From NCBI GenBank assembly GCA_021823165.1, contig JAKAOS010000008.1, positions 1 through 35,631 on the forward strand: a DNA stretch of 35,631 nucleotides, in the 5' to 3' direction. The first letter of the stretch is position 1; every line of letters starts with the position of its first letter. This DNA comes from Actinomycetes bacterium (lineage in GTDB: Bacteria > Actinomycetota > Acidimicrobiia > Acidimicrobiales > JAKAOS01). A program made the position numbers and the translations under genes. This document shows positions 2,425 to 16,903 of this stretch, in pieces. The notes beneath the pieces are model-generated. The model was given only the letters and a program-made list of their open reading frames with translations, ran no database searches and was not told the origin of the DNA.

Positions 2425-4116
2425 GTGGACATGCCACACTCGTCTCGGCGGCTTGGGGAGATTCTCGTCCAGACCAAGGTGCTCTCTCGTGACACCCTGG
2501 CGGAACTATTGCAGCAGGAGGAACGGGACGGCACGCCGCTTCCCCACCTGCTCGCCGAAACCGGCATCGTCAGTCGCCGAGACCTCCTTGCAGCGATAGC
2601 CAAAGAGGCCGGTTTTGGATATGCAGATTTGGCAGCCGATTCGGACAACCAGATTGCCGCCTCGCTACTGCAGCCCGAAGTTGCATGGAGGCAGCTGGCC
2701 CTTCCAACTGACCTGGATGCCGACCGGCTCGTGGTGGCCATGGCCGATCCGGGTGACATTCAGGCCCGTAAAGAGGTCGAGCTGGCCGCAGGGATGCCGG
2801 TCATCCCGCTCCTGGCCGACCGGAGGGAGTTGCTTGCGGCTCTCCAGCGCGTCTATGGCCATCGCGTAGACGTATTGGCAGACCAGGCCGAGGCCGCGCC
2901 CGTAGGGGACGATGGCAGCGCCCAGCCGCGGGAGACTTTGCTGGAGCAGGAACTGGGCGAGGCGGGTTTTTCGGAGGGTGCCGGTGCCGAGAGCGTGGTG
3001 ACATCGAGTAGGCCGGTCGGGCCGTCGGTGTTGGACTTTGACCCGGTAGGGGAGGTTCATCTCGACGAGATGCTCCAAGTGCTGGTCAAAAGGGGAGGTT
3101 CCGACCTGCACCTGAGCGTGGGGACGCATCCCGCTGCGAGGGTGGACGGCAACCTGATTCCCCTGACCGAGTTTCCGGTCATGACGGGTTCGGAGATTCG
3201 AAGGATGATTTACGCGGTGCTGACCCAGCGCCAGCGCGAGCGTTTTGAAGAGGACCTGGAGTTGGATCTCTCCCACGCAGTCCCGGGACTGGGTCGTTTC
3301 AGGGTGAACCTGTTTCTGCAGCGTGACTCGATGGGTGCGGTGATGCGCGCCATTCCCTTCGAGGTGGTTCCATTCGAAAAGCTCGGCCTGCCAGAGGCGG
3401 TACTGAACTTTGGCGAGCTGCCCCGAGGCCTCGTGTTGGTGACCGGGCCCACCGGATCTGGAAAGTCGACGACCCTGGCATCGTTGATTAACCACATCAA
3501 TGCGACCAAACCGGTTCACATCATGACAATCGAGGACCCAATCGAGTTCCTCCACCGTCATCAGAGAGCGATCATCAACCAAAGGGAAATAGGCGAGGAC
3601 ACGCACTCTTTTGCCAAGGCCCTGCGTCACGTGCTGCGCCAGGACCCCGATGTGATCCTGGTGGGTGAAATGCGGGACCTGGAGACCATTGCGACGGCTA
3701 TCACCGCGGCAGAAACCGGGCACCTGGTTTTCGGGACGCTGCACACTCAGGATGCCCCCCAGTCAATCGACCGGATCATCGACGTTTTCCCTGCCGCGCA
3801 GCAAACCCAGATCAGGGTGCAGCTTGCAACGGCATTGCAGGGAGTGGTCACCCAGCAGCTGGTGCCCAAGAGCGAGGGGAAGGGGAGGGTCGCCGCAATC
3901 GAGATCCTGGTGGCGACCCCCGCTGTGCGAAACCTGATCCGGGAGGGCAAGACCCATCAGATCTACTCAGCCATGCAGGCAGGTGGGCAGTACGGGATGC
4001 AGACCATGGACATGTCTTTGGCAGGGCTGGTGCGAAAGGGGGCCATCGCTCTACCGATGGCCACCGAGCGTTGTGCCAACGTAGAGGACCTACGCCGCCT
4101 GGTCCAGGGCGCCTGA
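2425..4116 (+). CDS. pilT: type IV pilus retraction ATPase PilT with N-terminal MshEN-like domain
   Basis: PilT is the hexameric cytoplasmic ATPase that depolymerises type IV pili, powering twitching and DNA uptake. The core begins near residue 210 with the PilT signature GSDLHLSVG, followed by Walker A (GPTGSGKST, from residue 341), Walker B (VGEMRD, 413-418), the His box (GHLVFGTLHT) and the C-terminal AVRNLIREGK element specific to PilT rather than PilB. At 563 residues it is much longer than ordinary PilT (about 350). The extra N-terminus (residues 6-150) resembles the GspE_N/MshEN domain normally found on PilB/GspE: the stretch from RLGEILV matches the 24-residue c-di-GMP-binding motif except at positions 10 and 24. 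GTG 2425 and ATG 2431 are both possible starts. It sits 13 nt before pilC and is probably co-transcribed with it. No pilB or pilin is in the window. Confidence 0.92.
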   Translation: MDMPHSSRRLGEILVQTKVLSRDTLAELLQQEERDGTPLPHLLAETGIVSRRDLLAAIAKEAGFGYADLAADSDNQIAASLLQPEVAWRQLALPTDLDADRLVVAMADPGDIQARKEVELAAGMPVIPLLADRRELLAALQRVYGHRVDVLADQAEAAPVGDDGSAQPRETLLEQELGEAGFSEGAGAESVVTSSRPVGPSVLDFDPVGEVHLDEMLQVLVKRGGSDLHLSVGTHPAARVDGNLIPLTEFPVMTGSEIRRMIYAVLTQRQRERFEEDLELDLSHAVPGLGRFRVNLFLQRDSMGAVMRAIPFEVVPFEKLGLPEAVLNFGELPRGLVLVTGPTGSGKSTTLASLINHINATKPVHIMTIEDPIEFLHRHQRAIINQREIGEDTHSFAKALRHVLRQDPDVILVGEMRDLETIATAITAAETGHLVFGTLHTQDAPQSIDRIIDVFPAAQQTQIRVQLATALQGVVTQQLVPKSEGKGRVAAIEILVATPAVRNLIREGKTHQIYSAMQAGGQYGMQTMDMSLAGLVRKGAIALPMATERCANVEDLRRLVQGA

Positions 4117-4129
4117 GGAGAGGATCGCT

Positions 4130-10330: not shown

Positions 10331-10420
10331 CGGTAATGAAACAGTTATGGGACGGGGGAAATTGGGCAAGGTCTGCCGAAAGCATTGCTCGCGGTGTGCA
10401 TCCCGAGGCATGATTCAGCG

Positions 10421-11110
10421 GTGAATGAGCAACACCAGGCGGTCGCGCGCGGGCGCGTTCTGGTCGTCGACGACGAACGCTCAATTCGTCGCCTGGTTGC
10501 GCAGTACCTGGAAAAGGAGGGCTACACGGTCCTCGAGGCGGACAACGGTGAGGAAGGCCTCGCTGTGTTGCGGAGGGGAAGCGCGGACGTAGCCCTGGTG
10601 GATGTGATGCTCCCCGGCCTGGACGGCTTCGAACTGGTTCGGGAAGCCCGGAGATTTACCGACATCCCCATCATCCTCCTTACCGCCCGGGGCGAGGAGG
10701 CAAACCGCGTCGCGGGGTTGGAAATCGGGGCGGATGATTACGTGGTGAAGCCCTTTTCGGCCGCCGAGGTGGTCGCTCGGGTCCGGGCTCACCTTCGTCG
10801 GCGGCAGGGAGGTTCAGCCCAGGAGGAGGTGGTTCGTCTTGGCGAAGTCGAACTGCATCTTCCGGCCAGGCGCTGCCTCGTGAAGGGAGAGGAGGTAGAC
10901 CTGACCCGGAGGGAGTTCGACCTGCTTGCCGCCTTGTCCGAGCGGCCGGGTCGGGCCCTGACCCGCAGCCAGCTGCTCGAAGCCGGATGGGGCACGACGT
11001 TTGTGACCGAAAAGACGGTTGACGTTCATTTGGCTTCTCTGCGCCGGAAGCTGGGCGGGGCGCTCAGGGTGACCGCAATTCGTGGGGTGGGCTACCGGCT
11101 GGACGCGTGA
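10421..11110 (+). CDS. OmpR/PhoB family response regulator
   Basis: A 229-residue two-domain regulator. The receiver domain has the acidic pair in VVDDE, phospho-acceptor Asp61 (LVDVMLPGLDG), the conserved Thr (ILLTARGE) and Lys (YVVKPF). The C-terminal winged helix is of the OmpR/PhoB type (LTRREFDLLAALSERPGRAL... VDVHLASLRRKLG). I use GTG 10421, since the upstream TTG at 10385 adds non-family residues. The stop overlaps the kinase start (ATGA), so they form one operon and a cognate pair. Nothing in the window shows its targets; the next genes downstream are on the other strand. Confidence 0.93.
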   Translation: MNEQHQAVARGRVLVVDDERSIRRLVAQYLEKEGYTVLEADNGEEGLAVLRRGSADVALVDVMLPGLDGFELVREARRFTDIPIILLTARGEEANRVAGLEIGADDYVVKPFSAAEVVARVRAHLRRRQGGSAQEEVVRLGEVELHLPARRCLVKGEEVDLTRREFDLLAALSERPGRALTRSQLLEAGWGTTFVTEKTVDVHLASLRRKLGGALRVTAIRGVGYRLDA

Positions 11111-12435
11111 TGCTCCCCCGTTTGGCATCCATCAGGTCCAAGATCGTGGCGATCATGGCCGTGGCGGCGGTCGCAGGGGTGCTTGGCACCTTCTCACTCG
11201 TGAGCGCGGTAGAGCGCTCTTCGGCACACTCCCAGGTGCGGGCCAGGGTTATCGCCACCGCCCAGGCGTTCTCGACTCTTCTTGCGGCGGGAGCCACTCA
11301 GGGCGAGATTCGCTCGGCAGGTTTTGTGATGCATCAGCAGCAGATCATTATCCGGGAGCCGGGTAAGCCACCGCTGGTGATGGGGGCACATGTGGCCCCG
11401 GAGGGTGCCATAAAAATATCTTCTCAGGTGGGGCGTGCCAGCATCGAGGTCAGCCAGGCACCCATAGCGACCACCGATGTGTCGCTGGAGTTGACCGCGG
11501 TGGCTGCTGCACTGTTCACTCTGATGCTGGGTGCGGGAGTGATGGTCGGGGTGACCATGCGCAAGGCTCTGGGCGGTCCTGTGGCCGCGGCGGTGAGGGT
11601 GGCAGACCGAGTAGCGCATGGGGACCTCTCTGCCCGCATGGGGGACGTGAGCACGCCGGAGCTTCGGGGACTGGCATCTGCGTTCGACAGCATGGCGGCG
11701 CGCCTGGAGGAGGCCGATCAGCTCCAGCGGCGCTTCCTTTCGGACCTGGGGCACGAGATTGCGACCCCACTCAACGCGGTCACGGGCTTTGCTTTAGGTC
11801 TGGCCGATGGGTCAATTACCTCAGAGGAGGATGTGGCCGAGGCTGCGGAGCTGGTGAGGGCCGAGAGCCAGCGCCTCCACGACCTCTTGGCAGCCCTCCG
11901 AAGATTGCACCAGCTTGATCTGGCTCAGCCGGTCGAGCACGTCATCTTTGACCCGGCCGGGGTCTTGGACGACATCTGTCACCGGCTGGAACCCAGGGCC
12001 CGCTCGGCCGGCCTCCGCCTCCTCTGCCGTGCGCGGTCCACCGTTGCCGTGGGGGATCCCCGGCTTGTGGACATGGCGGTCGAGAACCTGGTACTGAACG
12101 CCGTCCGCTACACGCCAAAGGGTGGACGCATCGAGGTCACCCTGTCGTTCCGCGGCCAGGAAACCGAGATCCGGGTAAAAGACACCGGGATCGGGATAGC
12201 ACAGGAGCATCTCCAGCGCATCTTCGATCGCCTCTACCGCGTGGACGAAGCAAGAGCGAGGGCGACTGGAGGTTTCGGCATCGGCCTTGCACTTGTCCAG
12301 CGTGCGGCACTCGCCCTGGGCGGGCGGGTAGAGGTGGAAAGCGAGAAGGGCAGGGGCAGTGAGTTCCGGCTCATCATCCCCAGGCCCTCGGAGGCGGAGG
12401 TGGCGCTATCGGAAGAACTGGAGCCGGCAGATTGA
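11110..12435 (+). CDS. membrane sensor histidine kinase
   Basis: About 441 residues. A first membrane segment lies near residues 10-33, then a short external sensor loop of roughly 85 residues, a second membrane segment (LTAVAAALFTLMLGAGVMVG), a HAMP domain, a HisKA domain with the phosphorylated His215 in GHEIATPLN, and a HATPase domain with N box (ENLVLNAVRYTP), G1 (DTGIGI) and G2 (GGFGIGLAL) motifs. It should phosphorylate the response regulator whose stop overlaps its start (ATG at 11110; a GTG at 11107 is an alternative). The small external loop has no recognisable ligand-binding fold, so the signal is unknown. The normal Arg/Pro of the H-box (HELRTPL) is read here as HEIATPLN, a small variation. 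Confidence 0.93.
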   Translation: MLPRLASIRSKIVAIMAVAAVAGVLGTFSLVSAVERSSAHSQVRARVIATAQAFSTLLAAGATQGEIRSAGFVMHQQQIIIREPGKPPLVMGAHVAPEGAIKISSQVGRASIEVSQAPIATTDVSLELTAVAAALFTLMLGAGVMVGVTMRKALGGPVAAAVRVADRVAHGDLSARMGDVSTPELRGLASAFDSMAARLEEADQLQRRFLSDLGHEIATPLNAVTGFALGLADGSITSEEDVAEAAELVRAESQRLHDLLAALRRLHQLDLAQPVEHVIFDPAGVLDDICHRLEPRARSAGLRLLCRARSTVAVGDPRLVDMAVENLVLNAVRYTPKGGRIEVTLSFRGQETEIRVKDTGIGIAQEHLQRIFDRLYRVDEARARATGGFGIGLALVQRAALALGGRVEVESEKGRGSEFRLIIPRPSEAEVALSEELEPAD

Positions 12436-12716: not shown

Positions 12717-13796
12717 TCAGCTTTCGCCGGGTGCATCCCTGAGCATCAGCCTTGCCTCCTCGAGGCTCATCTCCGTCGAGGGGACAATCAGGTCCGACTG
12801 GCGGTTCTCCTCGTCAGACAGCTTCGTGCCGTTGTTCTTGATCAGTTTTTCCAACTCGGCCACGCAGCTTGCGAAACTATCGGCATCGGAGGAGGACAAG
12901 GCGGCCGACATGGCGTCGTCGAGGCCGTCCAGGGCGGGGCGTATGGAGGAGGCGACCGAGTACTGGCCCTGGCCGGCGATTCGCACGATCATCGTCTCCG
13001 ACGTCCTGTTTGGTGCCTGGTCCTGAGCTTGTGGTGATTGGCCGGCATCCCCCTTGCCCTGCTCGAGGCTCCCCGCTGGCCCGGGCGGCGAAGCTATGGC
13101 CATCTGAGCCTTCATTGCCTGAAGCTGGGCCTCTACGGGGTCACCTGTGCCCTTGCGGAGCTGCGCGTCGATGTCGTCTCCGGCTCCGGGGCCGATCTCG
13201 AGGCTGTCGAGCACGCCGGCGTCGGCCAGTTCCCCCACGGCGGCGGAGCGCGCCTTCATGTCGTCAATCTTGTTCTGTGCCCGATCGAGCATCAAAGAAA
13301 CGTCGGCCATCTGCTCGGAGATCCCACTCACGCCCTCTATCGCCTGAGTGGACGCCTTGGCTGCGCTGTACTGGGCCTTTAGCGTGTCCCGCTGGGCCCT
13401 GAAGGACTCCACCTTGGCCTGTAGTTTTTGGGCCGCCAGCTCCAGTTGGCTCTCCTGGGTCTTGAGCTGGTCGATCTGTGGGGCGAGTCCATCCACTTGG
13501 CGCTGGACCACGTCGGCCCGGGCCAGGGCGGTGCGAGCAAGGTCCTCCTGGCCCTGTGACAGTGCCTGGCGGGCCTGGCCCTGCAGCTTTTCGTACTGGG
13601 CCAGCAAGGTTGAGCGCTGCGCCTCCAGGCGCTTTTGGGACGTGAGAACGTCTGCGACCGCCCGCCGCACCTGGTTGTACTGCTCCAACAGCTTTTGGTA
13701 GGAGAGGTCCAACGCTTGGCTCGGATCCTCGACCTTATCGAGGGCAGCGTTGGCCTTTTGCTGGAAGACCTGGGAAAACCGGCGGAACAGGCTCAT
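12717..13796 (-). CDS. pspA: PspA/IM30 phage-shock protein fused to a C-terminal PspAA domain
   Basis: The 359-residue protein starts like classical PspA (MSLFRRFSQVFQQKANAALD, then DPSQALDLSYQKLLEQYNQV) and continues as a long coiled coil to about residue 220, the ESCRT-III-like membrane-stabilising module. After a Gly/Pro/Gln-rich linker, the last 90 residues, beginning MIVRIAGQGQYSV and containing SDLIVPSTEMSLEEARL, match PspAA, which in actinobacteria is usually a separate small protein encoded next to pspA. The ATG at 13796 has GGAGAGGG 4 nt upstream; the frame stays open to 13982, but the extra residues are not family-like. It is divergent from a SEDS cell-wall gene across about 120 bp, which fits a role in envelope stress. 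The fusion, not the family, is the unusual point. Confidence 0.9.
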   Translation of the reverse strand: MSLFRRFSQVFQQKANAALDKVEDPSQALDLSYQKLLEQYNQVRRAVADVLTSQKRLEAQRSTLLAQYEKLQGQARQALSQGQEDLARTALARADVVQRQVDGLAPQIDQLKTQESQLELAAQKLQAKVESFRAQRDTLKAQYSAAKASTQAIEGVSGISEQMADVSLMLDRAQNKIDDMKARSAAVGELADAGVLDSLEIGPGAGDDIDAQLRKGTGDPVEAQLQAMKAQMAIASPPGPAGSLEQGKGDAGQSPQAQDQAPNRTSETMIVRIAGQGQYSVASSIRPALDGLDDAMSAALSSSDADSFASCVAELEKLIKNNGTKLSDEENRQSDLIVPSTEMSLEEARLMLRDAPGES

Positions 13797-13914
13797 CGGT
13801 CCCTCTCCTGTTGGGGTTCCGTCCCGTGGGCGGACGTGGTGCTCTTGACATATGTGATGATACGGGAGGAGAGGCCCTCCTGCTTCGCCAGGCACCGGCT
13901 TGCATCCCGACGCG

Positions 13915-15081
13915 ATGTCGCCCAGAGTAGGTCGTGTGGTGCATATAGCCCTGGAGCAGCGTAGGCCGAAGTTTTTGAACACGACCCTGAGGCGCTACGA
14001 CCTATTACTGGTCGGGGCCATCGTTGCCCTGGCGTTCTGTGGGGACCTGGCACTGTTCTCGGCGACCAGGGTGACCGATATCCGGGCCGGGATCAGCCCC
14101 TATTACTACTTGGAGCACCAAGTCCTCTACGACGTGCTCGGCATCATCGGCATGCTCGGGGTGATCTGGGTCGGCTACGAGCGGTTGTTGAGGTTCGGAT
14201 ACCTGCTCTATTGGATAATGATGCTGGCCCTGGTTGGTGTGATGGTCGTAGGTCATTCCAGCCTCGGTTCGCAGCGGTGGTTTTCGGTGGGCCCGTTCCA
14301 GCTGCAGCCGTCTGCGTTTGCGGGTCTGACGCTGGTGATCACTCTCGCCACTGCGGCGGGACGGCGCGATGGGCGGCTGGCGCTTCGAAACGTGCTGGGC
14401 CTCGTTGTGATGGCAGTGGTGCCGATTCTTTTGGTAATCAAGCAGCCCGACCTCGGGTCTGCGCTCATAATGCTCATGGCTTCGGCGGCGGCTCTGGTGG
14501 CCGCGGGGGTGAAGGGCCGGCATTTGGCAGGCCTCGCCGTGGCGGGGGTGCTGGCTGTCATGGTGGCACTGAGCCTGCACCTGCTGCACGCCTACCAGCT
14601 TGCCCGGCTCACGACGTTTTTGAGCCAGAACAACCCGGCCACCTTCCGCACCACGACCTACAACATCCAGCAGTCCAAGTTCGCCATAAGCTCGGGGGGC
14701 TTTTTGGGGAAGGGGATCTTTTCCGGCACCCAGGTCAACGGCGGCTACGTCCCTGCCTTCTCCACCGACTTCATCTTCTCTGCCCTTGGAGCGCAGTTCG
14801 GATTCCTGGGGGGCTTGGCGGTCATCCTGCTTTTTGCATTGATCGAGTGGAGGGTTTGGAAGGTGGCTGCGACGGCCCGCAGCCTGGGGGCAAGGGTATG
14901 TGCCACCGGCGTGCTGGCGATCATTGGCTTCAGCGTCTTTGAAAACGTGGGCATGGCCATGGGCATCATGCCGGTGGCGGGCATTCCGCTTCCCCTTATC
15001 AGCTTCGGCGGTTCTGCGGTGCTTGACACCTTTGCAGCAGTTGGCCTGGTGCTGAGCATCGGTGCCGAACGCTCGGCCTGA
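13915..15081 (+). CDS. SEDS family (RodA/FtsW-type) peptidoglycan glycosyltransferase
   Basis: An integral membrane protein of about 388 residues with roughly ten hydrophobic segments, matching the SEDS family that polymerises lipid II together with a class B penicillin-binding protein. Visible family features are IKQPDLGSAL, the late loop STDFIFSALG with the essential Asp, and the terminal GIPLPLISFGGSA. Two positions are odd: the usual QPSExxK motif reads QPSAFAG, losing the acidic and basic residues, and the usual GEE after DFIF reads GAQ. The protein may be a divergent RodA. ATG 13915 is my choice of start; TTG 13900 and GTG 13936 are possible and no ribosome binding site is decisive. The DUF151 gene begins 1 nt after the stop, so the two are coupled. 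No penicillin-binding protein gene is adjacent. Confidence 0.85.
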   Translation: MSPRVGRVVHIALEQRRPKFLNTTLRRYDLLLVGAIVALAFCGDLALFSATRVTDIRAGISPYYYLEHQVLYDVLGIIGMLGVIWVGYERLLRFGYLLYWIMMLALVGVMVVGHSSLGSQRWFSVGPFQLQPSAFAGLTLVITLATAAGRRDGRLALRNVLGLVVMAVVPILLVIKQPDLGSALIMLMASAAALVAAGVKGRHLAGLAVAGVLAVMVALSLHLLHAYQLARLTTFLSQNNPATFRTTTYNIQQSKFAISSGGFLGKGIFSGTQVNGGYVPAFSTDFIFSALGAQFGFLGGLAVILLFALIEWRVWKVAATARSLGARVCATGVLAIIGFSVFENVGMAMGIMPVAGIPLPLISFGGSAVLDTFAAVGLVLSIGAERSA

Positions 15082-15082
15082 G

Positions 15083-15571
15083 ATGTCTTTGTCCGAGGAC
15101 GCTGCCAATCACGACTCGGCCCCAGGGGAGCCGCGGCCCGCCATGGTGCCGGCCAGGGTCTTGGATGTGGTGGTCGACCTGCCCGCATCCAATCCGATGG
15201 TGGTGCTGGCCGAGGAGGGCGGTGCCGGGCGATGGCTGCGGTTCCCGGTTGGGTGGGCGGAGGGCCAGGCCCTCGCCTACGCTCTGCGAAACATCGCCAG
15301 CCAGCGGCCCCTTACCCATGAGCTGTTCCTGTCCGCCATGGCGGCCTTCGGCGTCTCGTTGGAGGTGGTGCGGATCACCGGCAGAAACGGCAAGACTTTG
15401 TTGGCCGAGGTCGTGCTCTCCGGCCCCGGCGGCCAGCGGCAGCTCGATTGCCGTCCTTCGGACGCGGTGATCTTGGCCACTCGTGCCTCCCTCGAGGTCC
15501 CAATAGTGGTTTCGGTGGGACTTTTGGACGAGTTGGGAGAGCCAGCGCCAGGAGTCCCGGGGGAGAACTGA
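15083..15571 (+). CDS. DUF151 / bifunctional nuclease domain protein
   Basis: A 162-residue protein with the DUF151 (BFN) fold: LRFPVGWAEGQALAYALRN, RPLTHELFLSAMAAFG, then TLLAEVVL and CRPSDAVILATRASLEVPI, in the family order. Members are reported as nucleases in plants and are common in actinobacteria, where the role is not settled. ATG 15083 comes 1 nt after the SEDS stop codon. The C-terminus ends in an acidic/Pro tail (LGEPAPGVPGEN). Only 9 bp separate its stop from that of the opposing SEDS gene. A function in cell-wall control is suggested only by position. Confidence 0.85.
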   Translation: MSLSEDAANHDSAPGEPRPAMVPARVLDVVVDLPASNPMVVLAEEGGAGRWLRFPVGWAEGQALAYALRNIASQRPLTHELFLSAMAAFGVSLEVVRITGRNGKTLLAEVVLSGPGGQRQLDCRPSDAVILATRASLEVPIVVSVGLLDELGEPAPGVPGEN

Positions 15572-15580
15572 CCCTCTGGG

Positions 15581-16903
15581 CTACCCCCAGGAGAGCTTTG
15601 CCGCCTCGCCCTCATTTGAGATGCGCATTATCAAAGCGATGAGGACGTAGTTGGCCACCAAAGAGGATCCTCCATAGGCCACGAACGGCAGGGTGACCCC
15701 AGTGAGGGGGAGCAGGCGGACGATCCCGGCCATGATGAAAAAGGCCTGGAATCCAAGCACCGCAGTCAGCCCGGCGGCGGCAAGCTTGGAAAAGTCGCTC
15801 CGCGCCGACAGGGCAGCCCGCAGACCTGCCCCCACCAGGATCAAAAAGGCAATGACCAAAGAGGTGGTGCCGACCAGGCCCATCTCTTCCCCAAAGGCGG
15901 CAAAGATGAAGTCGCTGATCACCACGGGCACGTAACTGGGATGGCCAAGGCCGAGGCCGGTCCCTGTGATTCCTCCCCATCCCAGTGCGTACTGCGCCTG
16001 CACGATTTGATAGCCGACGGTGTTGACATGGCTCCAGGGGTGCAGCCATGCGACGATTCGGGCATCCACATGGGCAAAGAGCAATGATCCGATCCAGGCT
16101 CCGACGACGAAGAGCACTGCACCCACTGCCAGGTAGGCGACGCGACCGGTGGCCACCCAGAGCATGGAGAGAAAGATCACGAAGATCAAAAAGGCAAAGC
16201 CCACGTTGTGTTCGGCAACCATGGCGAGCATGGCGAAGCCCCAAGCGGCAACCAAGGGCCCCAGGACTCTGGGGTCCGGCAAAAGTAGGTTCCCCACCCG
16301 CACGGTGGGAGTGGAGATGAGGTCCCTCTTCTCGCCGAAGGAGGAGGCAAAGAAGATGACCAGGGCGATCTTGGCAATTTCGACGGGCTGGAAGGAAACC
16401 GGTCCCAGCCTTACCCATAACCGCGAGCCGTTGACGTCGACCCCGAGGTGAGGGACCAGCGGTAGTAGCAGCATCCCGACACCGCCGACTCCCAATAGGT
16501 AGCGGTAGCGCTCGAGGTCCCGGCTATGGCGCACCGTGGCGAGGCCGAGCACGTAGACGACAACGCCTATCGCAGTCCACATCGCCTGATGCAGAGCGAG
16601 GGCTGGGTCGAGCCGGACCACCATCACCCAGCCCAGCCCGTTCAGCAATGCAGCCGTTGGGAGAATCACGGGGTCGGCATCGGGTGCCCACCTCCGATTG
16701 GCCAGGTGGCCTCCCATGGGTATCAGGGCAACTACGGCCAACAAGACGTCCGAAGTTCCAATCAGGCGGCCGGTCGTGGCGGTATGGGACAACAGGTAGG
16801 CGAAGCAGGTCGTAAGCGCCCCGAGGAGCATCAGGCCCAACTCGGTGCGCCTGCGTGGGACACCGGCGGATGCCCGGGCCACCGGGGCGAAGATGGCGGA
16901 CAT
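15581..16903 (-). CDS. second SEDS family protein, actinobacterial RodA/FtsW-like with extra N-terminal membrane segments
   Basis: A 440-residue polytopic protein with about 12 hydrophobic segments; the extra N-terminal pairs resemble the longer RodA-type SEDS proteins of actinobacteria. It has GSRLWVRLGP...FQPVEIAK (the QPSExxK motif with a Val), ISDFIFAAFGEEMGL with the essential Asp and Glu-Glu, and the C-terminal LPLTGVTLPFVAYGGSSL, which is close to canonical. One deviation: the loop usually reading (Q/K)xDLG reads EHNVG, an Asp-to-Asn change. A TAGCGT box 7 nt before ATG 16903 suggests a leaderless mRNA. It converges on the SEDS-DUF151 pair. With two such proteins in one locus, one probably serves elongation and one division or a special stage; which is which is not decidable from here. 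Confidence 0.9.
   Translation of the reverse strand: MSAIFAPVARASAGVPRRRTELGLMLLGALTTCFAYLLSHTATTGRLIGTSDVLLAVVALIPMGGHLANRRWAPDADPVILPTAALLNGLGWVMVVRLDPALALHQAMWTAIGVVVYVLGLATVRHSRDLERYRYLLGVGGVGMLLLPLVPHLGVDVNGSRLWVRLGPVSFQPVEIAKIALVIFFASSFGEKRDLISTPTVRVGNLLLPDPRVLGPLVAAWGFAMLAMVAEHNVGFAFLIFVIFLSMLWVATGRVAYLAVGAVLFVVGAWIGSLLFAHVDARIVAWLHPWSHVNTVGYQIVQAQYALGWGGITGTGLGLGHPSYVPVVISDFIFAAFGEEMGLVGTTSLVIAFLILVGAGLRAALSARSDFSKLAAAGLTAVLGFQAFFIMAGIVRLLPLTGVTLPFVAYGGSSLVANYVLIALIMRISNEGEAAKLSWG

Follow-up and report, generated by a model that had tools for sequence, protein, structure and literature searches.

A PspA–PspAA fusion of a described type lies back to back with a RodA-like wall gene in Acidimicrobiales

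Does a 359-residue open reading frame of an acidimicrobial contig encode a genuine fusion of PspA with PspAA, and does its position next to a cell wall gene carry meaning? A first-pass annotation of the window, that is the entire 35,631-nucleotide stretch analyzed here, had proposed both. The frame is located on the minus strand (12717..13796), where it runs open from an ATG at 13796 down to a stop codon at 12717-12719, and its start is preceded by a ribosome-binding site (AGGAG, 13805..13809, minus strand). Pfam searches revealed a PspA_IM30 match (PF04012) at residues 2-205 (E 3.2e-31; 109 bits, cut-off 33.9), covering profile positions 1-193 of 220, and a PspAA match (PF22743) at residues 269-354 (E 3.5e-23; 82 bits, cut-off 27), covering positions 1-86 of 92. 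The latter rules out that the C-terminal part fails to match PspAA. When scanned apart, the two halves again matched their own families, with E-values of 2.7e-32 and 1e-23, respectively.

AlphaFold models, run for the fusion with 21 fused proteins and separately for the last domain, agreed with this partition. The PspA/IM30 (ESCRT-III-like) part spans residues 1-234 (13095..13796, minus strand) and was predicted to form an N-terminal helix (3-21) followed by helices at 25-80, 84-156, 164-192 and 220-234. Its best PDB sequence matches were Vipp1/PspA, and Foldseek likewise returned Vipp1/PspA filaments (E down to 7.5e-8, probability 1.00), with a large overall rmsd that differing hinge angles would explain. 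Residues 236-265 were modeled at very low confidence (pLDDT below 50). This disordered linker, at about these residues (13002..13091, minus strand), differs in length and sequence among relatives, while both domains align. The PspAA domain (residues 268-354; 12735..12995, minus strand) was predicted as strands 268-273 and 277-282, helices 283-301 and 305-322, strands 323-325 and 336-338, and a last helix at 345-354. The separate domain run reproduced this strand-strand-helix-helix-strand-strand-helix order (pLDDT 84), and the published PspAA prediction likewise contains four strands and three helices (PMC11237479). Docking of PspAA onto PspA was unsupported in the fusion model, which showed low inter-domain confidence (pTM 0.40). 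A fold search with the PspAA model yielded nothing below an E-value of 2.7 and a sequence search against the PDB only chance-level matches; without a recognizable solved relative, the role of PspAA therefore cannot be read from its fold.

Unfused pspA-pspAA dyads overlap by 4 bases, so that a single indel could merge the two genes, and the frame might in principle be a frameshift or assembly artefact that joined two neighbors. That the same fusion is present in 33 other genomes rules this explanation out. A scan of genome contigs with the fused protein returned 30 loci, 28 of which encode the entire fusion, and five more came from other genomes, giving 33 fused loci besides the window. Carriers include two isolates, Acidithrix ferrooxidans and Ferrithrix thermotolerans. 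Within the window's own genome (90.8% complete), one PspA match and one PspAA match were found, both inside the fused gene; a stand-alone pspAA, whose absence the first-pass annotation had suggested checking, was thus missing, as was a stand-alone pspA. Its claim of a genuine fusion is thus upheld by the domain matches and the homologues alike.

The fusion was also observed in genome G034, which we take to be Acidimicrobium ferrooxidans DSM 10331 and presumably the source of the published example, ACU53894.1. Ravi et al. 2024, who named PspAA, reported direct PspA-PspAA fusions from Actinobacteria and Chloroflexi, with ACU53894.1 as an example (PMC11237479). As far as the passages of that paper covered here describe it, the architecture is no different from that of the window: an N-terminal PspA and a C-terminal PspAA in a single uninterrupted frame, in the same domain order and the same phyla. 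The window gene thus adds one more case to an architecture already on record. The fusion type is not new, and the back-to-back position with a wall gene in Acidimicrobiales is the only fresh detail that we headline; a RodA-like neighbor was not found in the passages of that paper covered here. Around this detail, the analysis adds modest information on origin and gene order, namely a single fused clade, ATGA dyads, the divergent rodA-like order and a SEDS cluster that exists independently of psp. Our literature search found no functional data on PspAA, no work joining PspA, RodA and Acidimicrobia, and none on a PspA-RodA-peptidoglycan link.

PspAA occurs in 56 of 298 genomes of the order Acidimicrobiales. 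Among those fetched and classified, fused forms fall in three families, f1 (that of the window), f33 (Acidithrix, Ferrithrix) and f50, and separate adjacent genes in f9, f32, f34, f37, f40, f44, f46, f122 and f123. Many other genomes of the order lack PspAA and encode a PspA that is only about 25% identical to the window's where alignable and seems to belong to a separate lineage. Across the phylum, 36 of 296 sampled genomes contain PspAA. Long open frames around PspAA were considered as further fusions, but all 16 loci examined, chosen from these 36 with the longest open frames included, turned out to be separate genes. The first-pass statement that PspAA is usually a gene of its own in actinobacteria accordingly holds for the remaining PspAA carriers that were sampled.

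A tree of the PspA part, built by a quick method and with SH-aLRT support only, gathered every fused form into a single set (34 rows, support 100), to which the Chloroflexota and 'Bacillota' sequences also belong; within it, the 31 fused rows from actinobacteria make up a subset (support 98), and unfused dyads adjoin the fused clade. A second change counted on the tree is due solely to one row of this set, L058, which had been classed as a dyad. At this locus (2696-4121 of a Chloroflexi contig), a fused-type PspA is followed by an incomplete PspAA part in another frame, and the split is probably a frameshift. Two contigs labeled Chloroflexi (L053) and Bacillota (L054) carry fusions 48-49% identical to the window protein, which suggests transfer between phyla or, for L054, a binning or naming error. 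The simplest reading of the tree is a single origin of the fusion together with inter-phylum transfer.

What would fusion have changed? According to the first-pass annotation, a covalent link would fix the stoichiometry of the two proteins. Dyads of separate pspA and pspAA genes, which occur elsewhere in the Actinomycetota and also in archaea (Methanosarcina, for example), hold the same two domains in the same order but as two polypeptides instead of one, and mostly with an ATGA junction. In 23 of the 28 Acidimicrobiales dyads, the start codon of pspAA and the stop codon of pspA share an ATGA overlap, with a TGATG-type junction in four more, and ATGA spacing recurred in 12 of the 16 non-fused loci examined elsewhere in the phylum. 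Start/stop overlaps of the ATGA kind commonly couple translation; stoichiometry was therefore probably coupled already, and a near-equal supply of PspA and PspAA probably preceded the fusion. The stoichiometry argument is weakened to this extent, while permanent tethering remains as what the fusion adds: it implies that the two parts act together in one location and in equal numbers, and it gives a single protein to work with. As PspAA is a domain without known function, the natural fusion offers a way in. The window protein shares the ESCRT-III-like helical fold with Vipp1/IM30 and with cyanobacterial and E. coli PspA, all of which, in contrast, have no PspAA domain.

As the best explanation, we regard it as probable that the gene encodes an ESCRT-III-like PspA of the PspA/Vipp1 family with a C-terminally tethered PspAA, fused once and later placed beside a rodA-like cluster. 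By analogy with the family, the PspA part would most likely bind the cytoplasmic face of the stressed inner membrane via its amphipathic N-terminal helix and most likely polymerize there into ESCRT-III-like rods or rings. Each subunit would bear one PspAA domain on a flexible tether, displayed on the polymer, where, speculatively, it might modulate the polymer or recruit a partner. The fusion probably arose once, from an overlapping pspA-pspAA pair. Within Acidimicrobiales, the resulting gene would then have come to lie divergent from a pre-existing rodA-like/BFN/SEDS cluster. That PspAA couples PspA to the RodA-like polymerase is a speculative hypothesis suggested by gene order.

The divergent gene begins beyond an intergenic region of 118 bp (13797..13914) and extends over 13915..15081 on the plus strand, with an ATG at 13915 and a possible TTG start at 13900. 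Its Pfam match to FTSW_RODA_SPOVE (PF01098, E 2.6e-75) bears out the reported divergence from a SEDS wall gene. Its best NCBIfam equivalog was TIGR02210 (rodA_shape) at 306 bits, below the cut-off of 336.7, and it exceeded the RodA_shape subfamily cut-off (184 versus 150); by profile it is nearest RodA while under the equivalog cut-off, and we call it RodA-like. A bifunctional nuclease (BFN) domain gene (PF02577; 15062..15571, plus strand) overlaps it and is followed by a second, convergent SEDS gene (PF01098; 15581..16903, minus strand) that was absent from the first-pass annotation. Across the fused clade, the SEDS proteins encoded divergently group together, apart from the convergent second SEDS.

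This arrangement is conserved. The comparison covered 30 distinct fused loci of Acidimicrobiales for which sufficient upstream sequence was available, the window included; another two fused loci run into a contig edge and are uninformative on the SEDS neighbor. A divergent SEDS ortholog lies within 0.9 kb of the matched sequence in 29 of the 30, the spacing between matched parts being about 0.1-0.9 kb, and at the thirtieth locus (G051) it lies at a distance of 3.4 kb, its orientation unchanged. By contrast, this rodA-like neighbor is missing from all 28 Acidimicrobiales dyads within the 7 kb of sequence covered, which is shorter for some. The SEDS-BFN-convergent SEDS cluster also occurs in dyad genomes, away from psp, and is therefore older, with psp having joined it.

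The first-pass annotation had further proposed that stress control and wall synthesis are linked. The link is a hypothesis drawn from gene order, and the conserved divergent order grounds it better than before. One form of it is co-regulation, in which one control region tunes both PspA-PspAA and the RodA-like polymerase, balancing membrane stress and wall elongation. Divergence in 29 of 30 fused loci versus 0 of 28 dyads speaks for it, as does the existence of the SEDS cluster without psp, implying that two units were brought together and have remained so since. However, the fused loci form one clade, and the counts therefore reflect one retained event instead of independent observations or repeated gains. 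Moreover, fused loci from Chloroflexota and 'Bacillota' have no rodA neighbor within roughly 4 kb upstream, and neither a common operator nor a consensus promoter was apparent: a scan of the window's intergenic region found no sigma-70-type match, and a side-by-side comparison of 19 upstream regions by eye gave no clear shared motif. Co-regulation thus appears rather doubtful. Passive neighborhood, in which the fused gene came to sit next to the rodA-like one and the order was inherited without functional meaning, is in our judgment somewhat probable; it fits the single origin, the intergenic sequence without visible conservation and the about 3 kb of extra sequence tolerated between the genes in G051, although the order persists even in genera where identity of the fused protein to that of the window falls to about 52-55%. 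A stronger proposal, that fusion went with capture by the rodA-like/BFN/SEDS wall cluster and created a dedicated PspA acting on, or co-regulated with, the wall polymerase, seems unlikely to us. The conserved divergent rodA-like gene provides a concrete, testable hypothesis on membrane stress and wall growth in Acidimicrobiales.

On its other side, the fused gene is convergent with a two-component pair, an OmpR-type response regulator and a histidine kinase (10385-12435). The passages of PMC11237479 covered here describe PspA-PspAA dyads of other genomes together with two-component systems; as a part of the present unit, the pair was rejected, since it was not found at this position in relatives. 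At the G051 locus (L062), the gene adjoining pspA on the SEDS side appears, by eye, to be shared with G001 (L007). A third SEDS gene, on contig C8, sits in an apparent murG-murC-murB-ftsQ-ftsZ cluster, named by eye from the open reading frames, and is probably the division protein FtsW. Finally, a BFN-domain gene sits between two wall polymerase genes in the window (13915-16903), an arrangement kept in dyad genomes.
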